Assembly: GCF_003952165.1 (NCBI RefSeq)
Contig: NZ_RXFT01000006.1
Location: forward strand, 62,001-126,000
DNA length: 64,000 bases
DNA from: Variovorax guangxiensis
GTDB lineage: Bacteria > Pseudomonadota > Gammaproteobacteria > Burkholderiales > Burkholderiaceae_C
Direction of reading: 5' to 3'
In this document: in pieces, positions 2,081 to 48,898 of the stretch
Layout: each line of letters begins with the position of its first letter
How positions within the stretch are numbered: position 1 is the stretch's first letter
Notes under the pieces: generated by a model
What the model saw: only the letters and a program-made list of their open reading frames with translations
Databases searched by the model: none
Told to the model about the DNA's origin: nothing
Translations under genes and position numbers: made by a program

Positions 2081-2995
2081 ATGAGAAAAACTTTGGATAA
2101 ATCGCTCAACCTCGACCAGCTTCGTTCCTTCGCGCTCGTCATCGAAGCCGGCAGCTTCTCGGCCGCCGCCGACAGGCTGGGCCTCTCCCAGCCGGCTGTG
2201 AGTCTTCAGATCCGCCAGCTCGAACGCCGGCTGGCGGTGCGCCTGGTGGAGCGCGTCGGCAAGCGCGCGCACGCCACGCCGGCGGGCATGGAGTTGCTGC
2301 GCCACGCGCAGAACATCGAGACCGCAGTGGAGAACGCCATCGACGCGCTCGCCGATCACGCCAGCGGCATCGCGGGCCGCGTACGGCTGGGCACGGGCGC
2401 GACGGCCTGCCTGCATTTCCTGCCTTCTGTGCTGCGCGGACTGCGCGAACGCTTCCCCGAACTCGGCGTGGTGGTCAGCACCGGCAACACAGAAGACCAG
2501 GCGCGCAAGGTGGAAGAAAACAGCCTCGATCTCGCGCTGGTCACGCTGCCCGTGGCCGGGCGCTCGCTGGCGGTGATGCCGGTGCTCGACGACGAGTTCG
2601 TCGCCATCGGCCGGCAGGACCTCGCACCGCTGAAGTCGAAGGTCGCGCCGGGCGATCTGGCCGGCCTGCCGCTGGTGCTGTTCGAGCCCGCGGCCAACAC
2701 GCGCAAGCTGGTCGACCGCTGGTTCGCCGCCGAGGGCCTGCAGCCGCAGCCGGTGATGGAGCTGGGCAGCGTGGAGGCGATGAAGGAGATGGTGGCCGCG
2801 GGGCTGGGCTACGCCATCGTGCCCGGCATGGCGATGACGGGGCGCGGCGCGCACCCGGAGCTGAAGGCCAGCCGGCTGAACCCTCGCATGCACCGTGCGC
2901 TGGCCATCGTGGTTCGGCGCGACAAGCCCGTCGGCAAAGCCTTGCGCGTGGTGCTGGATGCGATCGTGGCGGCCGGGAAGCCCGGCCGCCGCTGA
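2081..2995 (+). CDS. LysR-family transcriptional regulator
   Basis: About 304 residues. The N-terminal winged helix is clear: LDQLRSFALVIEAGSFSAAA followed by LGLSQPAVSLQIRQLERRL and a long linker helix, then a periplasmic-binding-protein-like effector domain. In-frame upstream starts exist at 2054 (GTG) and 2072 (ATG). I chose 2081 because the LysR domain begins right after it, but no start has a good ribosome site. The gene diverges from the acetyltransferase-MFS pair, the classic arrangement for a LysR activator of its neighbours. It ends 25 bp from a convergent second MFS gene. The effector is unknown. Confidence 0.88.
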   Translation: MRKTLDKSLNLDQLRSFALVIEAGSFSAAADRLGLSQPAVSLQIRQLERRLAVRLVERVGKRAHATPAGMELLRHAQNIETAVENAIDALADHASGIAGRVRLGTGATACLHFLPSVLRGLRERFPELGVVVSTGNTEDQARKVEENSLDLALVTLPVAGRSLAVMPVLDDEFVAIGRQDLAPLKSKVAPGDLAGLPLVLFEPAANTRKLVDRWFAAEGLQPQPVMELGSVEAMKEMVAAGLGYAIVPGMAMTGRGAHPELKASRLNPRMHRALAIVVRRDKPVGKALRVVLDAIVAAGKPGRR

Positions 2996-3020
2996 ACGAT
3001 TGCGGAGTTGCCGCTTGTGC

Positions 3021-4274
3021 TTACTCGGGCACGGCGGCCAGCGAGGCACCGCCGCGCGCGCGGCCCAGCGTGCCGACGATCAGCGCCGCGATCAGCACCA
3101 GCACGCCGCTGAGCACCATCGCGCTGGAGATGCCGAAGCTGTCGACCGTCACGCCGCCGATCAGCGCGCCGGAGGCGATCGCCACCTGGAAGCCGCTCAC
3201 AAGCAGCGCCTGGCCGGCCTCGGGTGCGTCGGGCACGGCTTCCATCATCCAGCCGGTGAGCGCGACCGGGATCAGGCCGAAGGCCACGCCCCAGATCACG
3301 ACCACCACCGCGCCGGGCACGAAGCCGGAGCCGATCACCGTCGTCAGCAGCAGGGCGGTGGCCAGCATCAGCGCCGCCAGCAGGGTGGTGCCGCGCACGC
3401 TGCGCGCCACCAGGCTGCCGCCGAGGAAGGTGCCGATGAAGCCCACCGCGCCGTACACCAGCAGCAGCGTCGACACCGAGTTGGGCGCGAGGCCGAACAC
3501 CTGCTGCAGCAGCGGCTTCAGGTAGGTGTAGGCCGCGAAGTGGCCGGCGATGAAGAACAGCACCGCGAGCAGGCCGACCTGCGCCATGCGGCGCGTGAGC
3601 GGCGTGAGCAGGTCGCGCGCGCCGATGGCGCGCACCGGCGGGATCGAAGGCAGCAACCACAGCTGCACCACCAGCACGGCGGCCGCGAGCGCGCCCGTCA
3701 CGGCGAACGATGCACGCCAGCCGAACAGCGTGCCGAGGAAGGAGCCGGCCGGCACGCCGAGCACGGTGGCGGCCGACACGCCGGCCAGCACGATCGACAT
3801 GGCGCGAGCCTGCGAGGCATGCGGCACCAGCTGCGTGGCGGCGGCGGGAGCGAAAGTCCAGAAGCCGCCCACGCACAGGCCGAGCAGCAGGCGTGCCACC
3901 AGCATGGTGGCGAAGTTGGGCGCGAAGGCCGCGAGCAGGTTCGATGCGATCAGCAAGGTGGTGAGCGCGATCAGCACCGTGCGGCGGTCGAGCTTGCCCG
4001 AAGCGACGATAAGCGCCGGCCCCGCGAAGGCGGCGAGCACGCCGGGCATGGTGACCATGAGTCCGGCCGTGCCGTCGGACACGTTGAGGCCGCGCGCGAT
4101 GTCGGTGAGAAGGCCGATGGGCATGAACTCCGTCGAGACCATCGCGAAGGTGCCGACGGCGATGGAGCCGACGGCGAGCCATGCGGAGCGCGAGGCCGGA
4201 ACGTGTGCTGCCGCGGCCTGCACCGGTGCTCCGAGTTCGTCGATGCACGGGTTGCTGCTGGGTGAATTCATCAT
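3021..4274 (-). CDS. MFS transporter, AraJ/NepI-like drug:H+ antiporter-1 type
   Basis: About 417 residues from the ATG at 4274. The reading frame stays open to 4406, but the extra N-terminal stretch is Arg-rich and not family-like, and AAAGGA lies about 12 bases before 4274. Twelve hydrophobic segments are apparent. The TEFMPIGLLTDIARGL segment near the first membrane helix is typical of the AraJ/YdhP/NepI subgroup, and a SGKLDRRTVL loop follows helix 2. Such proteins export sugars, nucleosides or drugs. No partner gene is adjacent on the same strand, and the nearby LysR gene is convergent. The substrate is not predictable. Confidence 0.85.
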   Translation of the reverse strand: MMNSPSSNPCIDELGAPVQAAAAHVPASRSAWLAVGSIAVGTFAMVSTEFMPIGLLTDIARGLNVSDGTAGLMVTMPGVLAAFAGPALIVASGKLDRRTVLIALTTLLIASNLLAAFAPNFATMLVARLLLGLCVGGFWTFAPAAATQLVPHASQARAMSIVLAGVSAATVLGVPAGSFLGTLFGWRASFAVTGALAAAVLVVQLWLLPSIPPVRAIGARDLLTPLTRRMAQVGLLAVLFFIAGHFAAYTYLKPLLQQVFGLAPNSVSTLLLVYGAVGFIGTFLGGSLVARSVRGTTLLAALMLATALLLTTVIGSGFVPGAVVVVIWGVAFGLIPVALTGWMMEAVPDAPEAGQALLVSGFQVAIASGALIGGVTVDSFGISSAMVLSGVLVLIAALIVGTLGRARGGASLAAVPE

Positions 4275-4453
4275 GATGGGAAGCTGTCCTTTGGAGCGTC
4301 GGCGGCGGCGCGCACCGATGCCGTTGAAGAGGCATGGAGTGTGCGAGCCGTCGCGCTTGCGACAAAGGTGCCGCGCGGCAGCAGACAGTTTCCCGGGGAT
4401 GAACAATGGGCCCTTTTAATGGCTATCGCCATCCATGGGGCCTCTGCAGCGGC

Positions 4454-4996
4454 CTAGCTGAGCGCGGGTCGCAATTGCAGTATTCGGCCATCGGCGACGA
4501 AGGAATCGCCGATCAGTACGCGAAAGGTTGTACCGGGCTGGAAGCGGGGCAGCGCGACGACGGGCGAGAGGAACTCGACTTCGAGCGCGGCGGGCTTGCC
4601 GCGCTCCAGCGCATCGCCCGCCGGCACCATCCAGCGCGCCGAGAAGCCTTCCTTGCCGAGCACCAGCGCGCAGCGGTATTCGCCCGGCGCGATGGGCGTG
4701 TCCTGCGAGGGCAGGGCGGGCTTGCGGAAAGTGATCTCCGCGAGCGCACCGGGTGTGAACGCACCCAGCGCATCGAAGCCCGGCGGTGCTGCGGCAGGCG
4801 CACGGCGCGGCCACTTGCCGATCAGCCATGCGATCACGTTGCCGATGATCGGCACCCACAGCACCATCAGCAGCGTCGCGATATCGCGCGTGGTCGAGCC
4901 CGGCGCCGCGTAGTGCCGCACCACCGCGCCGCCCACCGCCACGCACAGCAGGATGGCGACGATGAGCCTGCGGCGAAAGCCGATCTTCGTGCTCAT
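4454..4996 (-). CDS. Small membrane-anchored protein of unknown function
   Basis: 180 residues; not recognised. It begins MSTKIGFRRRLIVAILLCVA and shows two hydrophobic segments (about residues 10-30 and 38-60) separated by a short basic loop, then a roughly 115-residue soluble C-terminal part rich in beta-prone stretches such as EYRCALVLGKEG and TTFRVLIGDSFVADGRIL. The predicted topology is two membrane helices with a cytoplasmic or periplasmic beta domain. The C-terminal wording (a GDSFVADGRI element) resembles translation-factor-like beta barrels, but this is only an impression. It sits 4 bp from the end of the GFA-family gene upstream on the same strand, so co-transcription is likely. Confidence 0.65.
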   Translation of the reverse strand: MSTKIGFRRRLIVAILLCVAVGGAVVRHYAAPGSTTRDIATLLMVLWVPIIGNVIAWLIGKWPRRAPAAAPPGFDALGAFTPGALAEITFRKPALPSQDTPIAPGEYRCALVLGKEGFSARWMVPAGDALERGKPAALEVEFLSPVVALPRFQPGTTFRVLIGDSFVADGRILQLRPALS

Positions 4997-5000
4997 GCGT

Positions 5001-5402
5001 TCAGGCCTTTGCCGGCGGAGCTTCGGGGAAGGAGGGAATTGCCGTCGTGTGGTCGAGCCACGGCACCTCGTGCGAAGTCCAGATGTGCGAGGCGGGGCGC
5101 TGGCCCGGGTCGTCGTCGAGCGAGCCCAGGCGCAGGATGACCTGCGGCTTGTCCACCCACTCGGCCACGAGGTGCGTGCCGCAGCGGGTGCAGAAGTGGC
5201 GCAGCTTGCCGGGCGTCGATTCGAAGGAGCCGATGGCTTCCTCGCCCGCGGTCCATCGGAAGTCTGCGCGGTCGACGCGACCGGTCGTGGTGAACGCGGC
5301 GCTGTGCGCCTTGCGGCAGGTCGCGCAGTGGCAGTGGACGATGGGGCCGGCGAGGCGCGCGGCTTCGTACCGGACGGTGCCGCAGAGGCAGGAGCCTTTC
5401 AT
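5001..5402 (-). CDS. GFA-family (glutathione-dependent formaldehyde-activating-like) zinc protein
   Basis: 133 residues from the ATG at 5402, beginning MKGSCLCGTVRYEA. The GFA/CENP-V-like fold is shown by the Cys pattern CLCG (about 5-8), HCHCATCRKAHS (about 23-34) and FCTRCGTHL (about 70-78), which bind zinc. The family prototype binds S-hydroxymethylglutathione, but most members have no proven substrate, so the formaldehyde label should not be taken literally. The frame stays open far upstream through the ppc gene; that is an accident of GC-rich sequence. Together with the small membrane gene 4 bp downstream it forms a short minus-strand unit after ppc. Confidence 0.85.
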   Translation of the reverse strand: MKGSCLCGTVRYEAARLAGPIVHCHCATCRKAHSAAFTTTGRVDRADFRWTAGEEAIGSFESTPGKLRHFCTRCGTHLVAEWVDKPQVILRLGSLDDDPGQRPASHIWTSHEVPWLDHTTAIPSFPEAPPAKA

Positions 5403-42836: not shown

Positions 42837-43229
42837 ATGATCTACGGCATTGGCACCGACATCTGCGACCTGCGTCGCATCGCCGCGACCTTCGAGCGCC
42901 AGGGCGAACGCTTTGCCCGCAAGGTGCTGAGCGATGCCGAGTTCAAGGTCTGGCAGGCCCGCAGCGCGCGTTGGCCGAAGCGCGGCCTGAGCTACCTCGC
43001 TACCCGTTTTTCCGCCAAAGAGGCCTTCAGCAAGGCGATCGGGCTGGGCATGCGCATGCCCATGAGCTGGCGCCTGTGCGAGATCGCCAACCTGCGCAGC
43101 GGCAAGCCGGTCATCGTGCTGCACGGCGCCCTGAAGGAGTGGTTCGAGGACCAGGGCCTCACGGCCCACGTGACCGTGACCGACGAAACCGAATACGCCG
43201 CGAGCTTCGTGGTGGTGGAGAAGATATAG
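42837..43229 (+). CDS. acpS: Holo-ACP synthase
   Basis: 130 residues from the ATG at 42837 ([15 protein letters not shown]). It transfers phosphopantetheine from CoA to the Ser of AcpP. The metal-binding Asp is in GTDICD (about 8) and the second acidic residue in [12 protein letters not shown]. The longer frame upstream is Arg/Asn junk from the pdxJ glutamine repeat in another frame. It activates the acpP product encoded about 13 kb upstream in the same run. nagZ starts 2 bp after its stop. Confidence 0.96.
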
Positions 43230-43231
43230 AT

Positions 43232-44329
43232 ATGACCGCCGGGCTTGCAGAAGACCGCCCCCATGCGCCGCTGATCATCGACGTTGCCGGCACGGCGCTG
43301 ACAGACGCCGACCGCCGTCGCCTCGCCGACCCGCTCGTCGGCGGCGTGATCCACTTCGCCCGCAACTGGCAGGACCGCGCGCAGATGACCGCGCTCAATG
43401 CCGAGATCAAGTCGATCCGGCCCGACCTGCTGATCTGCGTCGATCACGAGGGCGGCCGCGTGCAGCGCTTCCGCACCGACGGCTTCACCCACCTGCCGAC
43501 GATGCGCGCGCTCGGCGAACTCTGGATGCGCGACGCCATGCGCGCCACCCAGGCCGCCACGGCCGTCGGGCAGGTGCTGGCCGGCGAGCTGCGTGCCTGC
43601 GGCGTCGACTTCAGCTTCGCACCGGTGCTCGACCTGGACTACGGCGGCAGCAGCGTCATCGGCACCCGCAGCTTCCACCGCGACCCGCGCGTGGTCGCGC
43701 TGCTGGCCAAGAGCGTGATGCACGGCATGCTGCAGATGGGCATGCGCAACTGCGGCAAGCACTTTCCGGGACACGGTTTCGTGCACGCCGACTCGCACGT
43801 CGAGATCCCGGTGGACAAGCGCGGCCTCAAGGCCATCCTGGCCGACGACGCGAAGCCCTACGACTGGCTGTCGGGCTCGCTCGCGGCCGTGATGCCGGCG
43901 CATGTGATCTATCCGAAGGTGGACAAGCGGCCGGCGGGGTTTTCCGCCAAATGGCTGAAGGAGACCCTCCGGCAGCGGATCGGCTTCGAGGGAGCGGTTT
44001 TCAGCGATGACCTGAGCATGGAGGCTGGGCGCTACATCGATGGCGAATTGCTCAGCTTTGCCGATGCGGCGCTGGCGGCGCTGGCGGCCGGATGCGACAT
44101 GGCGCTGTTGTGCAACCAGAGCATCGGCGACGGCGCGCCGCTCGACGGATTGCTGCAGGGCTTCGCTGCGGCCCGGGATGCAGGGCGCTGGATGGGCAAC
44201 CTGGACAGCGAAGCGCGCCGCAGGGCCTTGCTTCCCGATACGGCGGCGCTGCCATGGGCTGCGCTTGCGGGCTCGGCGCCGTATTGCAGCGCCAGGCGCA
44301 CCCTCTCGCGCGATCGCCTGACGGAGTAG
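43232..44329 (+). CDS. nagZ: Beta-N-acetylhexosaminidase NagZ
   Basis: 365 residues from the ATG at 43232. A glycoside hydrolase family 3 enzyme that removes GlcNAc from anhydro-muropeptides in the cytoplasm during wall recycling, which also feeds AmpC induction. LLICVDHEGGRVQRF, CGKHFPGHG (Lys/His about 176-177) and the nucleophile Asp in FSDDLSM (about 259) are visible. Follows acpS with only 2 bp between. It is slightly longer at the C-terminus than E. coli NagZ (341). A glycosyltransferase gene follows after 6 bp. Confidence 0.96.
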   Translation: MTAGLAEDRPHAPLIIDVAGTALTDADRRRLADPLVGGVIHFARNWQDRAQMTALNAEIKSIRPDLLICVDHEGGRVQRFRTDGFTHLPTMRALGELWMRDAMRATQAATAVGQVLAGELRACGVDFSFAPVLDLDYGGSSVIGTRSFHRDPRVVALLAKSVMHGMLQMGMRNCGKHFPGHGFVHADSHVEIPVDKRGLKAILADDAKPYDWLSGSLAAVMPAHVIYPKVDKRPAGFSAKWLKETLRQRIGFEGAVFSDDLSMEAGRYIDGELLSFADAALAALAAGCDMALLCNQSIGDGAPLDGLLQGFAAARDAGRWMGNLDSEARRRALLPDTAALPWAALAGSAPYCSARRTLSRDRLTE

Positions 44330-44335
44330 TCGCTG

Positions 44336-45685
44336 ATGCCGCTGTGCCTCAGTTTCTTCCAGCGCAAGGACGAGGCCGTGCTGCGCAATCACGCGCACTA
44401 TTGCCGGCTGTTCGGATACCCGCACCAGTGGATCGAGGCCGATCGCATCCGTCACCCCGCGTTGCGCGACAGCGCGAAATACAGCCAGATCCTGCGCCAC
44501 CTGCGCGCGCTGCCGGAGAACGACTGGCTGCTGTTCCTCGACGGCGACTCCGTGGTGTTCCACCCGGTGGCCGTCGAAGTGCTGCTGCAGGGACGGGATT
44601 CGCTGGTCGTCGAAGGGCCTCCCAGCGGTGACCGACCCGGTCCGGCGATGACCAACATGATGGTGCTGCGCAATACGGCAGCCAACCGCGCCATGCTGCT
44701 CGGACTGATGGACGACGCAGGCTATGTCATCGCTCTGGTGAATCGCGCCGTCGACGAAGCCGCACGGCTGCGTCCGGCTGGCCTGCTCGGCTGCAATGCC
44801 ATGGTCGGCGACATCTACGCCAACGTGTCGTGGCGCATTCCGCAGTGGTTCCTGGCGCGCATCTTCGTCGTCAACCTCGGGCCGCTGCCCATCCTGGCGC
44901 CCGAGGGTGGATGGCGCGAGGCATTGCTTCACGACCAGAACCTGCAGGACATGCTCGTGGCGCAGGTCAACAATGCACTGATCCACGGCCAGCCCGTGCT
45001 GCAGCCTGCGGCTTATCCTGCTCTGTCGGAAGAGCGGGTGTCGAGCTACAACGCCGGTGCTGACATCGCTTTCGTCACGCTCTACACGCACCACGTCGGC
45101 AGCTACGCGCGGGTGTCCGAGCACAACGTGAAGCGCTATTGCGACCGGCACGGCTACGCGTACCACGTGTACCGTGCGATTCCAGAAGCCGTCGACACCG
45201 GCATCGGCGGATCGTGGGTGCGCAGCTGGCTGCTGCAGCAGCACATCGCGCATCACAAGTGGGTGATCTGGATTGACGCCGACGTGCTCTTCCTCAACCA
45301 GAGTCGCCGGATCGACGCCTTGCTCGATGGGCGTGAGCTGCTGCTCGCCAAGGACGTAGGCGGCTGGTCGTTCAACTCGGGCGTGATGGGCTTCCTGAAT
45401 ACCCGGGGCAACGCCGAGCTGCTGGCGCGTATCTGGCAGCGCATCGGCGAGGTCGACGACAAGTCGGCGGTCTACAGCAGCCAGGGCGATCAGTACTACA
45501 CCAACGAAGTGCTGTCCGGAGCGGGGCTGGTGAACGAGCACGGCATCGTCGACAACCTCAGCATCAACACGCCACCGCACCTGGCTTCCGACGAGACCCT
45601 GCTGGTGCACTTCATCAATCTGGACGAGCCCTATCGGTCGGCCTACATGGCCTCGATGGATGCGCTCTCGCAGCGCCTGCGCTGA
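44336..45685 (+). CDS. Putative glycosyltransferase with two tandem GT-A-like domains
   Basis: 449 residues. Two halves share a pattern: RNHAHYCRLFGYPHQW then NDWLLFLDGDSVVF (about 18-75), and EHNVKRYCDRHGYAYHVY then HKWVIWIDADVLFLN (about 262-321). Each has a DxD-type motif (DGD, DAD), and MTNMMVLRNTAAN mirrors FNSGVMGFLNTRGN. The second half, with SSQGDQYYTNEV, resembles GMA12/MNN10-type (GT34) galactosyl or mannosyl transferases. No signal or membrane helix, so it is likely cytoplasmic. It sits 6 bp after nagZ and converges with another glycosyltransferase. Donor and acceptor are unknown; one domain may be non-catalytic. Confidence 0.75.
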   Translation: MPLCLSFFQRKDEAVLRNHAHYCRLFGYPHQWIEADRIRHPALRDSAKYSQILRHLRALPENDWLLFLDGDSVVFHPVAVEVLLQGRDSLVVEGPPSGDRPGPAMTNMMVLRNTAANRAMLLGLMDDAGYVIALVNRAVDEAARLRPAGLLGCNAMVGDIYANVSWRIPQWFLARIFVVNLGPLPILAPEGGWREALLHDQNLQDMLVAQVNNALIHGQPVLQPAAYPALSEERVSSYNAGADIAFVTLYTHHVGSYARVSEHNVKRYCDRHGYAYHVYRAIPEAVDTGIGGSWVRSWLLQQHIAHHKWVIWIDADVLFLNQSRRIDALLDGRELLLAKDVGGWSFNSGVMGFLNTRGNAELLARIWQRIGEVDDKSAVYSSQGDQYYTNEVLSGAGLVNEHGIVDNLSINTPPHLASDETLLVHFINLDEPYRSAYMASMDALSQRLR

Positions 45686-45694
45686 GCGGGCCGG

Positions 45695-47641
45695 TCAGCC
45701 GTTCGCGGCCTGCGGCTCGGCGGCCGCCGGTGCTGGTTCCAGCCTGAAGATCCGTACCGGCAACTGGCTGGACGCCGGCGCGAGGAACTGGGCGATCTCG
45801 GGCACCGCGAACTGCCGCTCCAGCCATTCCTTGTCCGCCAGCCCCGCGTTGAAAAAGATCTGAAGCAGCCGCAAGGCCTCGTGCCGCAATGCGCGCGTCA
45901 GCGTTTCATGCTCGACCAGCTGCAGCTCCGGTGCCGCGGCTGGCCTGAAGCTCGCGCGCGCGAGGACCAGCAGCAGCTTCTCCGCGAAGTCGAGCACCGG
46001 CGGCCAGTAGAGGTCGTAGAGCTTGGCGATCTCCTGCACATGCTCGACGCTCGATTGGGGCAGCAGATGGGCCAGAACCAGCGCCCGCGCCCGCGATGCC
46101 AGCGTGGCCGCGCGGGCCGCATCGGCGGAACCGGTCGGAGTGGCCGGCTTGTGAAGAAGCTCTGGGATCACCGCAAAGCGCGCGCCGGCGGCTGCGCTCT
46201 TGCAAAGCATGTGGAAGTCGTCGTGCGCCGTGAACTCGGGATCGTGGCGCACGCCGCTGCGCTCCATGAAGCTGCGGCGCAACATGCAGGCCGACAGTAG
46301 CAAGGGGCGCGGGCCGAAGAACTCCACGAGGATGTCCTGATGCCGCTCGGAGAACTCGAAAGGGCCCTCCTGCGTCTCGCACCAGGAGCCGACGATGTCG
46401 ATGCCGGGGCAAGCCTGAAGCAGCGCGGCCTGGCGCTGCAGGCGTTGCGGCGCTGGAACGTCGTCGACGTCGGCGAAGACGACGTAGTCGCCTTGCGCAT
46501 GCGCGAATGCAAGGTTGCGGGCCGTGGCTCGGTCGAACGCGAAGGGCAGGGCGACCATCTGCGAACTGGCGATGCCCGATCCCGCCAGCACGGCCTCGAG
46601 GCCGGCGATGCCCGCGCGCGCGACCAGTACCAGGTGGAGCTCCACCGCGGTCTGGGCCGCCCAGGTCCGAAGGCTGCGCTCCAGGCTTTCGAGCGAATCG
46701 CCGGCTGCCAGGCAGAGGGTGACACGCGGTGGTGTCGCCGGCAGGGCGAAGCGGTCGGGTTGCTGGGCGCGCCAGCTCAGGAAGCGCTCGATGGCCGGCC
46801 CCACCAGAGGGGCTGCGAACGCGCTGGTGAAGATCGCCAGGCCTTCGCGTTCGAGTCTCGCCCGGCGGGGTGCATCGGCAAGAAGCTGCTCGATCGTCTC
46901 GATGAGCTTCTCGTAGGGGGCTCCAACCACCGCCTTGCGGATCGACGCCTCGATCTCGCTGTCGGGGTACAACTCGCAGACCACGGCCTTGCGATGCCGC
47001 AGCAGGATGGACAGCCGTGGCACCTCGACGATGCGCGACTCTTCCCAGTTGTGGAGGTTGAGCACGATCTTCGCGCGCCGCATGAAGCCGTTGCGCTCTT
47101 CCAGCGTCCAGGCTCGCCCCCGGTTGACTTCGACGCGCAGGCCGCGCGCCATCAGTCCTTCGAGGATGTCGATGCGCCGGCGTGTCAGCGAGCCGAAGAA
47201 AACGACGTCGATGTCCTGCTGCTCGTCGGGGAGGATGTCTTCCAGCGGCATGATTTCCGCGGCGTCGGGCTCCCAGCCGAGCGCGACATAGTCCGCGTTG
47301 CGGTAGCCGAGCTGGCGATGCCGCTGGAAGTTCGTCTTGCTGTATTCCCAGAGATAGCAGCGCTTGAGCACTTCGAGATAGCGATCGTTCCATGCATGGG
47401 TGCCATGCACCATCGGCTCGAAGTTGACGACGATGCAGTCGGGGTGGTGCTGCTCGATGTGCTCCCATGGCACATCCCAGAAGAAGAACAGGATGTTGAT
47501 TTCACCCGGCTCGATGTAGCAGTGGGTGAACCGGGTCGGGTAGCCGAGGCGTTCCGCCGCCAGCCTGAAGGCTTCGACGATGTCGCCGCAGGTTTCGTGC
47601 GAGGACAGCGAGGTGAAGTTGAGCCGGGGCAGTGTCGTCAT
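45695..47641 (-). CDS. Two-part glycosyltransferase (CgeB/GT1-like N-half plus GT2 C-half)
   Basis: 648 residues. The N-terminal part (about 1-290) has a Rossmann-like look: DVVFFGSLTRRRIDIL (about 145-160), KIVLNLHNWEESRIVEVPRL (about 191-210) and RKAVVCELYPDSE, as in GT1/CgeB-like transferases. The C-terminal part (about 305-540) is a GT2 domain, with LCLAAGDSLESLERSL, RATARNLAFAHAQGDYVVF and the DxD at DVDD (about 391-394). A helical tail follows. No membrane segment. It lies 26 bp after a methyltransferase gene on the same strand. Probably builds a polysaccharide or modifies a protein; the substrates are unknown. Confidence 0.75.
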   Translation of the reverse strand: MTTLPRLNFTSLSSHETCGDIVEAFRLAAERLGYPTRFTHCYIEPGEINILFFFWDVPWEHIEQHHPDCIVVNFEPMVHGTHAWNDRYLEVLKRCYLWEYSKTNFQRHRQLGYRNADYVALGWEPDAAEIMPLEDILPDEQQDIDVVFFGSLTRRRIDILEGLMARGLRVEVNRGRAWTLEERNGFMRRAKIVLNLHNWEESRIVEVPRLSILLRHRKAVVCELYPDSEIEASIRKAVVGAPYEKLIETIEQLLADAPRRARLEREGLAIFTSAFAAPLVGPAIERFLSWRAQQPDRFALPATPPRVTLCLAAGDSLESLERSLRTWAAQTAVELHLVLVARAGIAGLEAVLAGSGIASSQMVALPFAFDRATARNLAFAHAQGDYVVFADVDDVPAPQRLQRQAALLQACPGIDIVGSWCETQEGPFEFSERHQDILVEFFGPRPLLLSACMLRRSFMERSGVRHDPEFTAHDDFHMLCKSAAAGARFAVIPELLHKPATPTGSADAARAATLASRARALVLAHLLPQSSVEHVQEIAKLYDLYWPPVLDFAEKLLLVLARASFRPAAAPELQLVEHETLTRALRHEALRLLQIFFNAGLADKEWLERQFAVPEIAQFLAPASSQLPVRIFRLEPAPAAAEPQAANG

Positions 47642-47667
47642 GGGGCGCAGTGCACGGGCAAGGGCCG

Positions 47668-48294
47668 TCAGTAGTGGCCTAGCACGTTGACCTTGTGGTA
47701 GTGGTCCTTCAGCGCGGCATGCAGCTGCAGTGCCTGCGCGCGGGTTTCGTCACCGGCCTCCTTGCCCACGCCGAAGAAGTACAGGTCGTGGCTGCTGCGG
47801 TCTTCGAAGAAGCCCCATACCGAGAACCAGGCGTCGTGCTGGAGCAGTTCCGTGAAATCGGAGGCCGCGAGATTCCGGTAGTAGTTCTGGCTCTTGCCGA
47901 TGGTCAGCGGCGAGTCGGAGGGGTTGAACTCCACGGTGCCATGCTGGCGCCGTCCCGGTGTGGCGCAGGTCATGACGACGAGGCCGTCGTCCTTCACCAG
48001 TCGCAGCATGTTGAGCCAGGTTTTCTTCCACTGTGGGTTGTGCTCCATGGCCTCGCACGAGATGACGACGTCCGTGCCATTCGCGGCGCCGCCATGGTTT
48101 TCACCGTGGCAGACGAGGTCGACGTCCGGGCCTTCCCCTACATCGAGGCCGAGATAGCTGCAGTCCTGGAAGAACTCGCGAACCGAACCGTTGAGATTGA
48201 GGCTGCCGATCTCGATCACCGACCGACCGGTGAAGTAGGAAGGCAGGAACTGCTTCACGCCGGCGACGAAGAATCGTTGTTGAGGATGTGACAT
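47668..48294 (-). CDS. SAM-dependent methyltransferase (class I), glycan-cassette type
   Basis: 208 residues from the ATG at 48294 (MSHPQQRFFVAGVKQFLPSY). SAM motif I is SVIEIGSLNLNGSV, motif II DCSYLGLDVGEGPDVD, and ISCEAMEHNPQWKKTWLNM plus DGLVVMTCATPGRR follow, as in methylase type 11/23 proteins found beside glycosyltransferases. The frame is open upstream to 48519 but overlaps the neighbouring gene. It is 67 bp after the YgjP-type gene and 26 bp before the large glycosyltransferase, so it probably methylates a sugar or glycan intermediate made by its neighbours. Confidence 0.75.
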   Translation of the reverse strand: MSHPQQRFFVAGVKQFLPSYFTGRSVIEIGSLNLNGSVREFFQDCSYLGLDVGEGPDVDLVCHGENHGGAANGTDVVISCEAMEHNPQWKKTWLNMLRLVKDDGLVVMTCATPGRRQHGTVEFNPSDSPLTIGKSQNYYRNLAASDFTELLQHDAWFSVWGFFEDRSSHDLYFFGVGKEAGDETRAQALQLHAALKDHYHKVNVLGHY

Positions 48295-48361
48295 GAGCCT
48301 GGCTGCGTTGGGTTGGCTTTGCGGCTGAAGCTCGGGGGACTGGAACACTCGCTGCGCGAAG

Positions 48362-48898
48362 TCAACCCTGGCCGGGTGAAGAGGCTGCTGCCGCATTCGC
48401 CCACAAGCGCTTTCCTCCCATGCCCAAGTGCTCCAGGTACAGCCGGAGATCGAACTCGAGGCGATGATAGTCCGGCTCCATGTGCCTGCACAGCGCATAG
48501 AACGCCTTGTCATGCTCACGTTCCTTCATATGTGCCAACTCGTGCACAACAATCATCCTCAGCCACGCCAGCGGCACTTCCTTGAACAGGCTCGCGACCC
48601 GGATTTCCCGCTTGGCCTTGAGCTTGCCGCCCTGCACACGCGACACGGTGGTGTGGGTGCCCAGCGCGTTGCGGATCACGTGCAGCTTGTTGTCGAACAT
48701 CACCTTCGACAGCGGCTCGGCCTTGCGCATGAATTCGCCCTTGAGTTCGCTCACGTAGCCGTAGAGCGCCCGGTCGGTCTGGATGTCGTGCACGCCGTCC
48801 GGGTAGCGCTGGCCGAGGAGGGCGCCGAGCCTGTCTTCGGCGATGAGCTGGCGGACCTGCTCCAGCAAGGGTGCCGGGTAGCCCGCCAGGTATTTCAT
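48362..48898 (-). CDS. YgjP/DUF45-type zinc metalloprotein
   Basis: 178 residues. The zinc-protease motif is HELAHMKEREHD with His at about 119 and 123, Glu 120 and a third His at 129, followed by FYALCRHMEPDYHRLEFDLRLYL, which is characteristic of the YgjP-like (M48/WLM-related, DUF45) family. Proteolytic activity has rarely been shown for these proteins, which often sit near nucleases or chaperones. It has no signal or membrane segment. It starts 13 bp after the Hsp70 gene, so it is likely co-transcribed with it. Function unknown. Confidence 0.82.
   Translation of the reverse strand: MKYLAGYPAPLLEQVRQLIAEDRLGALLGQRYPDGVHDIQTDRALYGYVSELKGEFMRKAEPLSKVMFDNKLHVIRNALGTHTTVSRVQGGKLKAKREIRVASLFKEVPLAWLRMIVVHELAHMKEREHDKAFYALCRHMEPDYHRLEFDLRLYLEHLGMGGKRLWANAAAASSPGQG

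Follow-up and report, generated by a model that had tools for sequence, protein, structure and literature searches.

A tandem GT34-like glycosyltransferase family of Burkholderiales with a presumed catalytic C-terminal half and an N-terminal half degenerate across the family

The question raised by this locus is whether a protein that appears to contain the same glycosyltransferase (GT) domain twice uses both copies as enzymes or has given one of them another role. The gene lies in a window of 64,000 nucleotides (the whole stretch of DNA that was analysed) from the 7.18 Mb genome of a soil bacterium, a Variovorax. The initial annotation, made from the letters and their open reading frames, proposed an internally duplicated catalytic domain which either adds two sugars or has turned one half into a binding module. 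The gene, its halves and the positions discussed below are as follows.

44336..45685, + strand, stop included: tandem GT-A (GT34-like) glycosyltransferase gene, 449 aa (ORF); homologues are 439-475 aa long with the same two-half layout
44336..45037, + strand: N half, aa 1-234, predicted GT-A domain, apparently degenerate across the family (AlphaFold2, 2p6w match, conservation)
45038..45682, + strand: C half, aa 235-449, presumed catalytic GT-A domain (PF05637, 2p6w match, conservation)
44540..44548, + strand: DxD position of the N half, D69-G70-D71 (DGD in the window protein), placed by alignment; D69 in 36 and D71 in 17 of 38 proteins
45275..45283, + strand: DxD of the C half, D314-A315-D316; both Asp in 38 of 38, A315 in 37 and S in one
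45485..45493, + strand: C-half motif G384-D385-Q386; D385 and Q386 in 38 of 38, G384 in 37 of 38
45608..45610, + strand: C-half His425, candidate metal ligand (C-His), in 38 of 38

The motif pairs on which the duplication had been proposed lie where they were reported and follow the same order in both halves of the protein: RNHAHYC (residues 17-23) in the N half pairs with EHNVKRYC (262-269) in the C half, LLFLDGD (65-71) with IWIDADVLFL (311-320), and NMMVLRNT (107-114) with NSGVMGFLNT (347-356). Compared as single sequences, the halves gave a weak signal above chance, with a Smith-Waterman score of 54 that was reached by 4 of 1000 shuffles and a BLASTP E-value of 0.003 in a two-sequence comparison. 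Since a comparison of this kind is too weak to settle homology, profiles were used. Profile-profile alignment of the halves, with 28 rows each, gave E-values of 2.1e-12 (global) and 4.3e-12 (local), and the C-half profile alone picked up the N half of the protein from genome G043 (E 8.4e-5). The Pfam model of GT34, PF05637, with a cut-off of 23 bits, scored 42.9 bits on the whole protein, 26.8-26.9 bits on the C half and 18.7 bits, below the cut-off, on the N half. Across 28 members the same model matched the C half in all 28 and the N half in 20, with E-values up to 1. NCBIfam models and PHROGs gave no matches to the 449-aa protein. The N and C halves are homologous, and the proposed internal duplication of a GT-A domain holds, both on the profile comparison (E 2e-12) and on the GT-A fold predicted for each half.

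The initial annotation had set its own refutation check, whether the N half would fail to fold as GT-A, and it withstood this check: modelled alone, the N half is confidently predicted to be a GT-A domain (AlphaFold2, pLDDT 90.2, pTM 0.88). Its best PDB match is 2p6w, which is domain 1 of A064R (Z 16.1, rmsd 3.0, 184 aligned), followed by the plant enzyme XXT1 (6bsu; Z 14.0, rmsd 3.7, 206 aligned), with LH3 and R699 ranking after XXT1 at Z of about 12 each. In the full-length model (pLDDT 91.2, pTM 0.88), VIA-align superposes the C half (residues 242-441) on A064R domain 1 with Z 20.2 (rmsd 3.1, 192 aligned) and on XXT1 with Z 17.0 (rmsd 3.3, 205 aligned). The predicted models of both halves thus have the GT-A fold that characterizes GT34. 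At the level of profiles, the C half matched A064R domain 1 with E 4.5e-7 over positions 21-206 of 215 and the plant GT34 enzyme XXT5 with E 0.0016 in a short match around the DxD; the N-half profile reached an E-value of just 0.12 against A064R domain 1. The first strand of the full-length model is formed by residues 3-8, and because no leader precedes it the protein is probably located in the cytosol.

Conservation was counted over 38 distinct two-domain proteins, drawn from 39 rows (the 28 of alignment A2 plus 11 others), in an uneven set with many close Variovorax rows (L007 and L026 are 97.6% identical). The identical proteins L008 and L035 were counted once. L001, L002, L004 and L006 were left out as the same places as the window, L013, L018 and L024, as were nine of 12 plasmid records (H2, H7 and H12 were kept) and L082, the second copy on the L063 contig. 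In the C half, W294, D314, D316, N347, D375, D385, Q386 and H425 are each present in 38 of 38. Judged by sequence, a metal-dependent retaining GT-A enzyme would be expected to have these residues, among which we take Q386 to be the Gln near the reaction centre. The DxD and the C-His are both discussed for GT-A enzymes in the available part of PMC7185993. The conserved DxD of GT34 is found in the C half alone, the N half having a full DxD in 15 of 38 (DGD in 14, DDD in one). Other variants at this place are DQF, DCN, DGN, DxH, DST, DES, DVF, DEF, DPF, TQD and SED; D69 is replaced by T or S in two members, and position 71, where it is not D, is F, H, N, T or S. Of the 14 closest Variovorax N halves (window to L023), 13 have a full DxD and L018 has DGN. 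The acid that opens the helix, E141, occurs in 34 of 38. At position 142, which corresponds to Gln386, the residue is A, N, S, E, L, G, T or H, and of the candidate His positions 180 is N, S, H, Y, C, A or F and 199 is H, Y, F, V or A; these counterparts of Gln386 and His425 were assigned by secondary-structure order, and hhalign puts them a few residues away. The N half nonetheless has invariants of its own: N18, H19, Y22, Y28, H30 and R112 are each found in 38 of 38.

The N half is more divergent than the C half in 374 of 378 pairs from the 28 rows, with a mean identity of 43.7 versus 55.6%. Against ten relatives its dN/dS is 0.09-0.28, compared with 0.05-0.26 for the C half, and the N-half value is not always the higher one (L018). 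The N half is under purifying selection and is not decaying. Together with its six invariants, this argues that the domain is kept for something other than the chemistry of the C half. When the halves of 24 family members were placed in a tree together with six single-domain relatives, the N halves formed one clade (support 100/99) and the C halves another (97/98), which indicates one old duplication or fusion; that event is older than the spread of the sampled family. The single-domain proteins sit nearer the C-half side; their place inside or outside the duplication, like the root, is provisional, and the tool flagged several long branches (L061, L048_N, L047_N, L009_N) as well as long branches that meet. 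In the tree of the 24 N halves, a full DxD switches between present and absent four times or more, so the DxD is not what conserves the N half family-wide. Separately, among the viral-contig loci (eight of 16 opened), seven (L064-L066 and L075-L078), on contigs classed as viral, code for proteins of one domain that are related to the C half, in open frames of 230-320 aa with the motif WIDADA. The L065 and L075 proteins are identical, and these relatives are possible outgroups for rooting.

We consider it likely that the protein combines a catalytic, retaining, GT34-like C half with a degenerate accessory N half, derived from one old duplication or fusion and found in Burkholderiales. The C half would be the catalytic unit. 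A064R domain 1 and GT34 suggest by analogy that D314/D316 and H425 would hold the Mn2+ through which the C half binds a UDP-sugar, and that the sugar would be transferred with retention of configuration, Q386 lying near the reaction centre. The N half appears to be drifting into a pseudo-glycosyltransferase, keeping the fold and its own invariants and having lost the metal and catalytic set in most members; most likely it positions the acceptor, or scaffolds or stabilises and regulates the C half. The two outcomes offered by the initial annotation differ in likelihood. Because the N half has no family-wide DxD, Gln or C-terminal His, the binding module agrees better with family conservation, and the addition of two sugars agrees with it less well. 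The degeneracy of the N half is a judgement from family conservation and seems to be least in the window protein's own clade.

The main alternative, which we regard as unlikely, is a bifunctional enzyme whose two halves both work and attach two sugars one after the other, at least within the DGD-keeping Variovorax clade. All 14 DGD N halves, including that of the window protein, carry H199, but the same 14 rows have A (11), T (two) or S (one) at position 142 and never Gln. The purifying selection on the N half would suit two active sites, as would the precedent of A064R of PBCV-1, where two GT domains in tandem on one polypeptide are both proven transferases (available part of PMC9614988); set against them are the match to PF05637 below the cut-off and the repeated changes of the DxD on the tree. 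The H199 count nevertheless led us to lower our confidence in the catalytic C half with an accessory N half a little and to raise that in the bifunctional enzyme a little. A combination of the two is rather improbable in our view, namely that in the DGD/H199 Variovorax clade both GT34-like sites are active and add two sugars in a single pass, with a non-catalytic, acceptor-holding N half in the sister clades.

A missing metal motif is no proof of inactivity, because A064R domain 2 is an active transferase that needs no cation (available part of PMC9614988), prokaryotic GT6 and GT14 work without DxD, and certain families do so without the C-His (available part of PMC7185993). The N half could accordingly be imagined as an active, metal-independent glycosyltransferase that no longer needs its DxD, a reading that we find very unlikely. 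Metal-independent bacterial GT6 structures are among its structural matches (4ayl, Foldseek 1.3e-5 and VIA Z 11.6; 4ayj also matched), and several of its polar residues are invariant. Many GT-A structures other than GT6 match at a similar Z, however; position 71 has no consistent substitute, and D69 itself has become T or S in two members. An accessory N half beside a catalytic C half remains our preferred reading.

The position of the gene was the other point on which a function might have been hung, and it is bordered as follows.

42971..44329, + strand: nagZ ORF (GH3), left border of a variable site, true start probably further in (PF00933, PRK05337)
45695..47641, - strand: neighbouring GT2-domain protein of the same insertion (PF00535); homologues occur in the nagZ-ygjP gap of other genomes of the genus
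47668..48519, - strand: neighbouring methyltransferase-like ORF (weak PF13489 match, E 0.003, below cut-off); homologues occur in two other gaps
48362..48898, - strand: ygjP-like metallopeptidase gene, which borders the variable site on the right (PF01863)

The nagZ ORF matches the beta-N-acetylhexosaminidase model PRK05337 far above its cut-off. Within the genus, nagZ was matched in 41 of the 41 genomes searched and ygjP in 40 of 41; in the 40 genomes with both on one contig the two are less than 100 bp apart in 26 and 345-4047 bp apart in 14. Gap contents were examined in 13 of these 14 (window, L002, L004, L006 and L049-L057; G334 was left out). Eleven of the 13 hold at least one of the two-domain GT, the GT2-domain neighbour or another GT2-like gene, and six (window, L002, L004, L006, L050, L055) hold the two-domain GT; the gaps of L056 and L057 showed none of the four query genes beyond a 39-residue match. 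Throughout Variovorax, the nagZ-ygjP interval is a place where glycan genes are variably inserted, represented in the window by the gap 44330-48361. As side observations, the 648-aa GT2-domain neighbour has its GT2 domain in the C-terminal half alone (365-452 matched), and its N-terminal 300 aa, with no confident Pfam domain, may be another GT domain.

The initial annotation was right about the 6 bp between the two genes (nagZ stop at 44329, GT start at 44336); a functional link is not upheld, because adjacency at a site with variable cargo is no evidence of function. That the GT works with nagZ in peptidoglycan recycling is hardly credible and was rejected on synteny: the shared direction and close spacing speak for it, but nagZ and ygjP are close neighbours in most genomes, wider gaps carry variable GT genes, the two-domain GT sits beyond ygjP-hsp70 in L005, L021, L022 and L023, and L025-L037 gave no nagZ match within the flanks searched (3 kb at most), so that linkage to nagZ is not conserved among the homologues.

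The family is sparse: with the window's own genome counted each time, it was found in 7 of 61 relatives searched, in 3 of 399 genomes from the order and in 1 of 274 from the class. The C-half profile matched 4 of 398 genomes of the phylum, again including the window's own; the match in G710 is a single-domain protein of about 248 aa. PF05637 has a single match in the window genome, which is the two-domain GT gene, and a Pfam profile search found it absent from 14 control genomes. In a named-genome collection, 27 loci were found in Variovorax, Collimonas, Hydromonas, Comamonas and one uncultured Burkholderiaceae by a scan with two short peptide patterns, which favours close relatives; the closest named homologue is that of Variovorax sp. 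CAN15 (96% identity). Twelve Caballeronia and Burkholderia plasmid records also match, ten with an alignment that covers 80% of the query or more. Phages gave one weak match (27.5% over 28% of the query).

The surroundings differ between lineages. In two Caballeronia plasmids the GT gene lies among metabolic and unassigned genes. In Hydromonas duriensis (L028, 582-6123) three DUF2827 genes, a family to which Pfam gives no function, surround the GT and a methyltransferase, in what may be a glycan-type cluster. On one contig of Variovorax sp. EL159, the paralogues L014 and L021 lie about 4 kb apart and flank ygjP-hsp70; after the second there is, on the opposite strand, a class II aminoacyl-tRNA synthetase gene, and then a gene of the rhamnosyl O-methyltransferase/CmcI family. 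L063, an IMG/VR contig of 65 kb classed as viral, has two adjacent copies of the two-domain GT (2287-3648 and 3661-5016) and a DUF2827 gene, resembling the Hydromonas cluster; the contig may be host DNA. Because neighbours vary between lineages, the gene's context gave no clue to the donor or the acceptor.

Most known GT34-like enzymes are from plants and fungi, and a relative occurs in an algal virus. Limited searches of open-access literature (titles and the beginnings of abstracts) found no description of a bacterial tandem GT34-like family. What we describe is a family of bacterial proteins whose internal duplication is fixed, one copy being retained although it has mostly lost its catalytic set, and the support for it as a real variation on a known theme is good. 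Its members stand at different stages of loss, which makes it a compact system for testing the function of pseudo-glycosyltransferase domains, and if the DGD clade did have two sites the family would have been caught between a bifunctional enzyme and a pseudo-enzyme. Annotation would also improve, since seven of the 12 matched plasmid records call the gene a 'hypothetical protein', five have no feature at the match, and NCBIfam has no matching model.

It is useful to compare the protein with systems in which GT-A domains work in pairs. The best match of both halves is domain 1 of PBCV-1 A064R (2p6w/2p72/2p73), a retaining beta-L-rhamnosyltransferase with a GT34-like GT-A fold and about 20% identity to the C half. 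According to the available part of PMC9614988, domain 2 is an inverting, cation-independent GT with no homology to annotated rhamnosyltransferases and domain 3 is a methyltransferase; domain 2 is not a copy of domain 1, unlike the halves of the window protein. Both GT domains of A064R are active, domain 2 without a cation, so that the family-wide catalytic set seen here in the C half alone does not by itself decide between one active half and two. XXT1, XXT2 and XXT5 are plant Golgi enzymes with one GT-A domain per chain. They (6bsu, 9p3j) share their fold with both halves, and the short profile match of the C half lies around their DxD. XXT2 and XXT5 form a stable, preferred, non-covalent pair in which XXT5 has some activity in vitro (available part of PMC9201394); in the window protein both GT-A domains are on one chain. 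COSMC and LARGE1/2 belong to other GT families, and COSMC is a separate chain. The two GT domains of LARGE belong to different families. The available part of PMC7185993 describes COSMC as a GT-A relative without DxD that is kept as the partner of an active GT, and LARGE1/2 as two GT-A domains in tandem.

A parallel in organization is offered by two collagen-modifying enzymes, human LH3 with its GT-AC module (PLOD3; available part of PMC6082870) and mimivirus R699 (available part of PMC11838735), each with tandem GT-A-type domains of which one is catalytic and one accessory. Foldseek matched the full model to LH3 and R699 with best E-values of 3e-10 and 3e-9 over about 500-530 alignment columns, and this column count suggests that the match spans both halves of the model. 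A similar arrangement of the domains is not supported, the whole-length rmsd being 16-18 and the query TM 0.27-0.32, and neither protein is among the best 50 VIA rows of the full model. LH3 carries an additional hydroxylase domain and has its catalytic domain first; in the window family the accessory domain appears to come first and the catalytic domain second. The family has two tandem GT-A domains, one degenerate by family conservation, and the catalytic set lies in the C half and not N-terminal to the accessory domain. With this conserved set in its C half, the window protein would work like the LH3/R699 pair and not be a member of that family.
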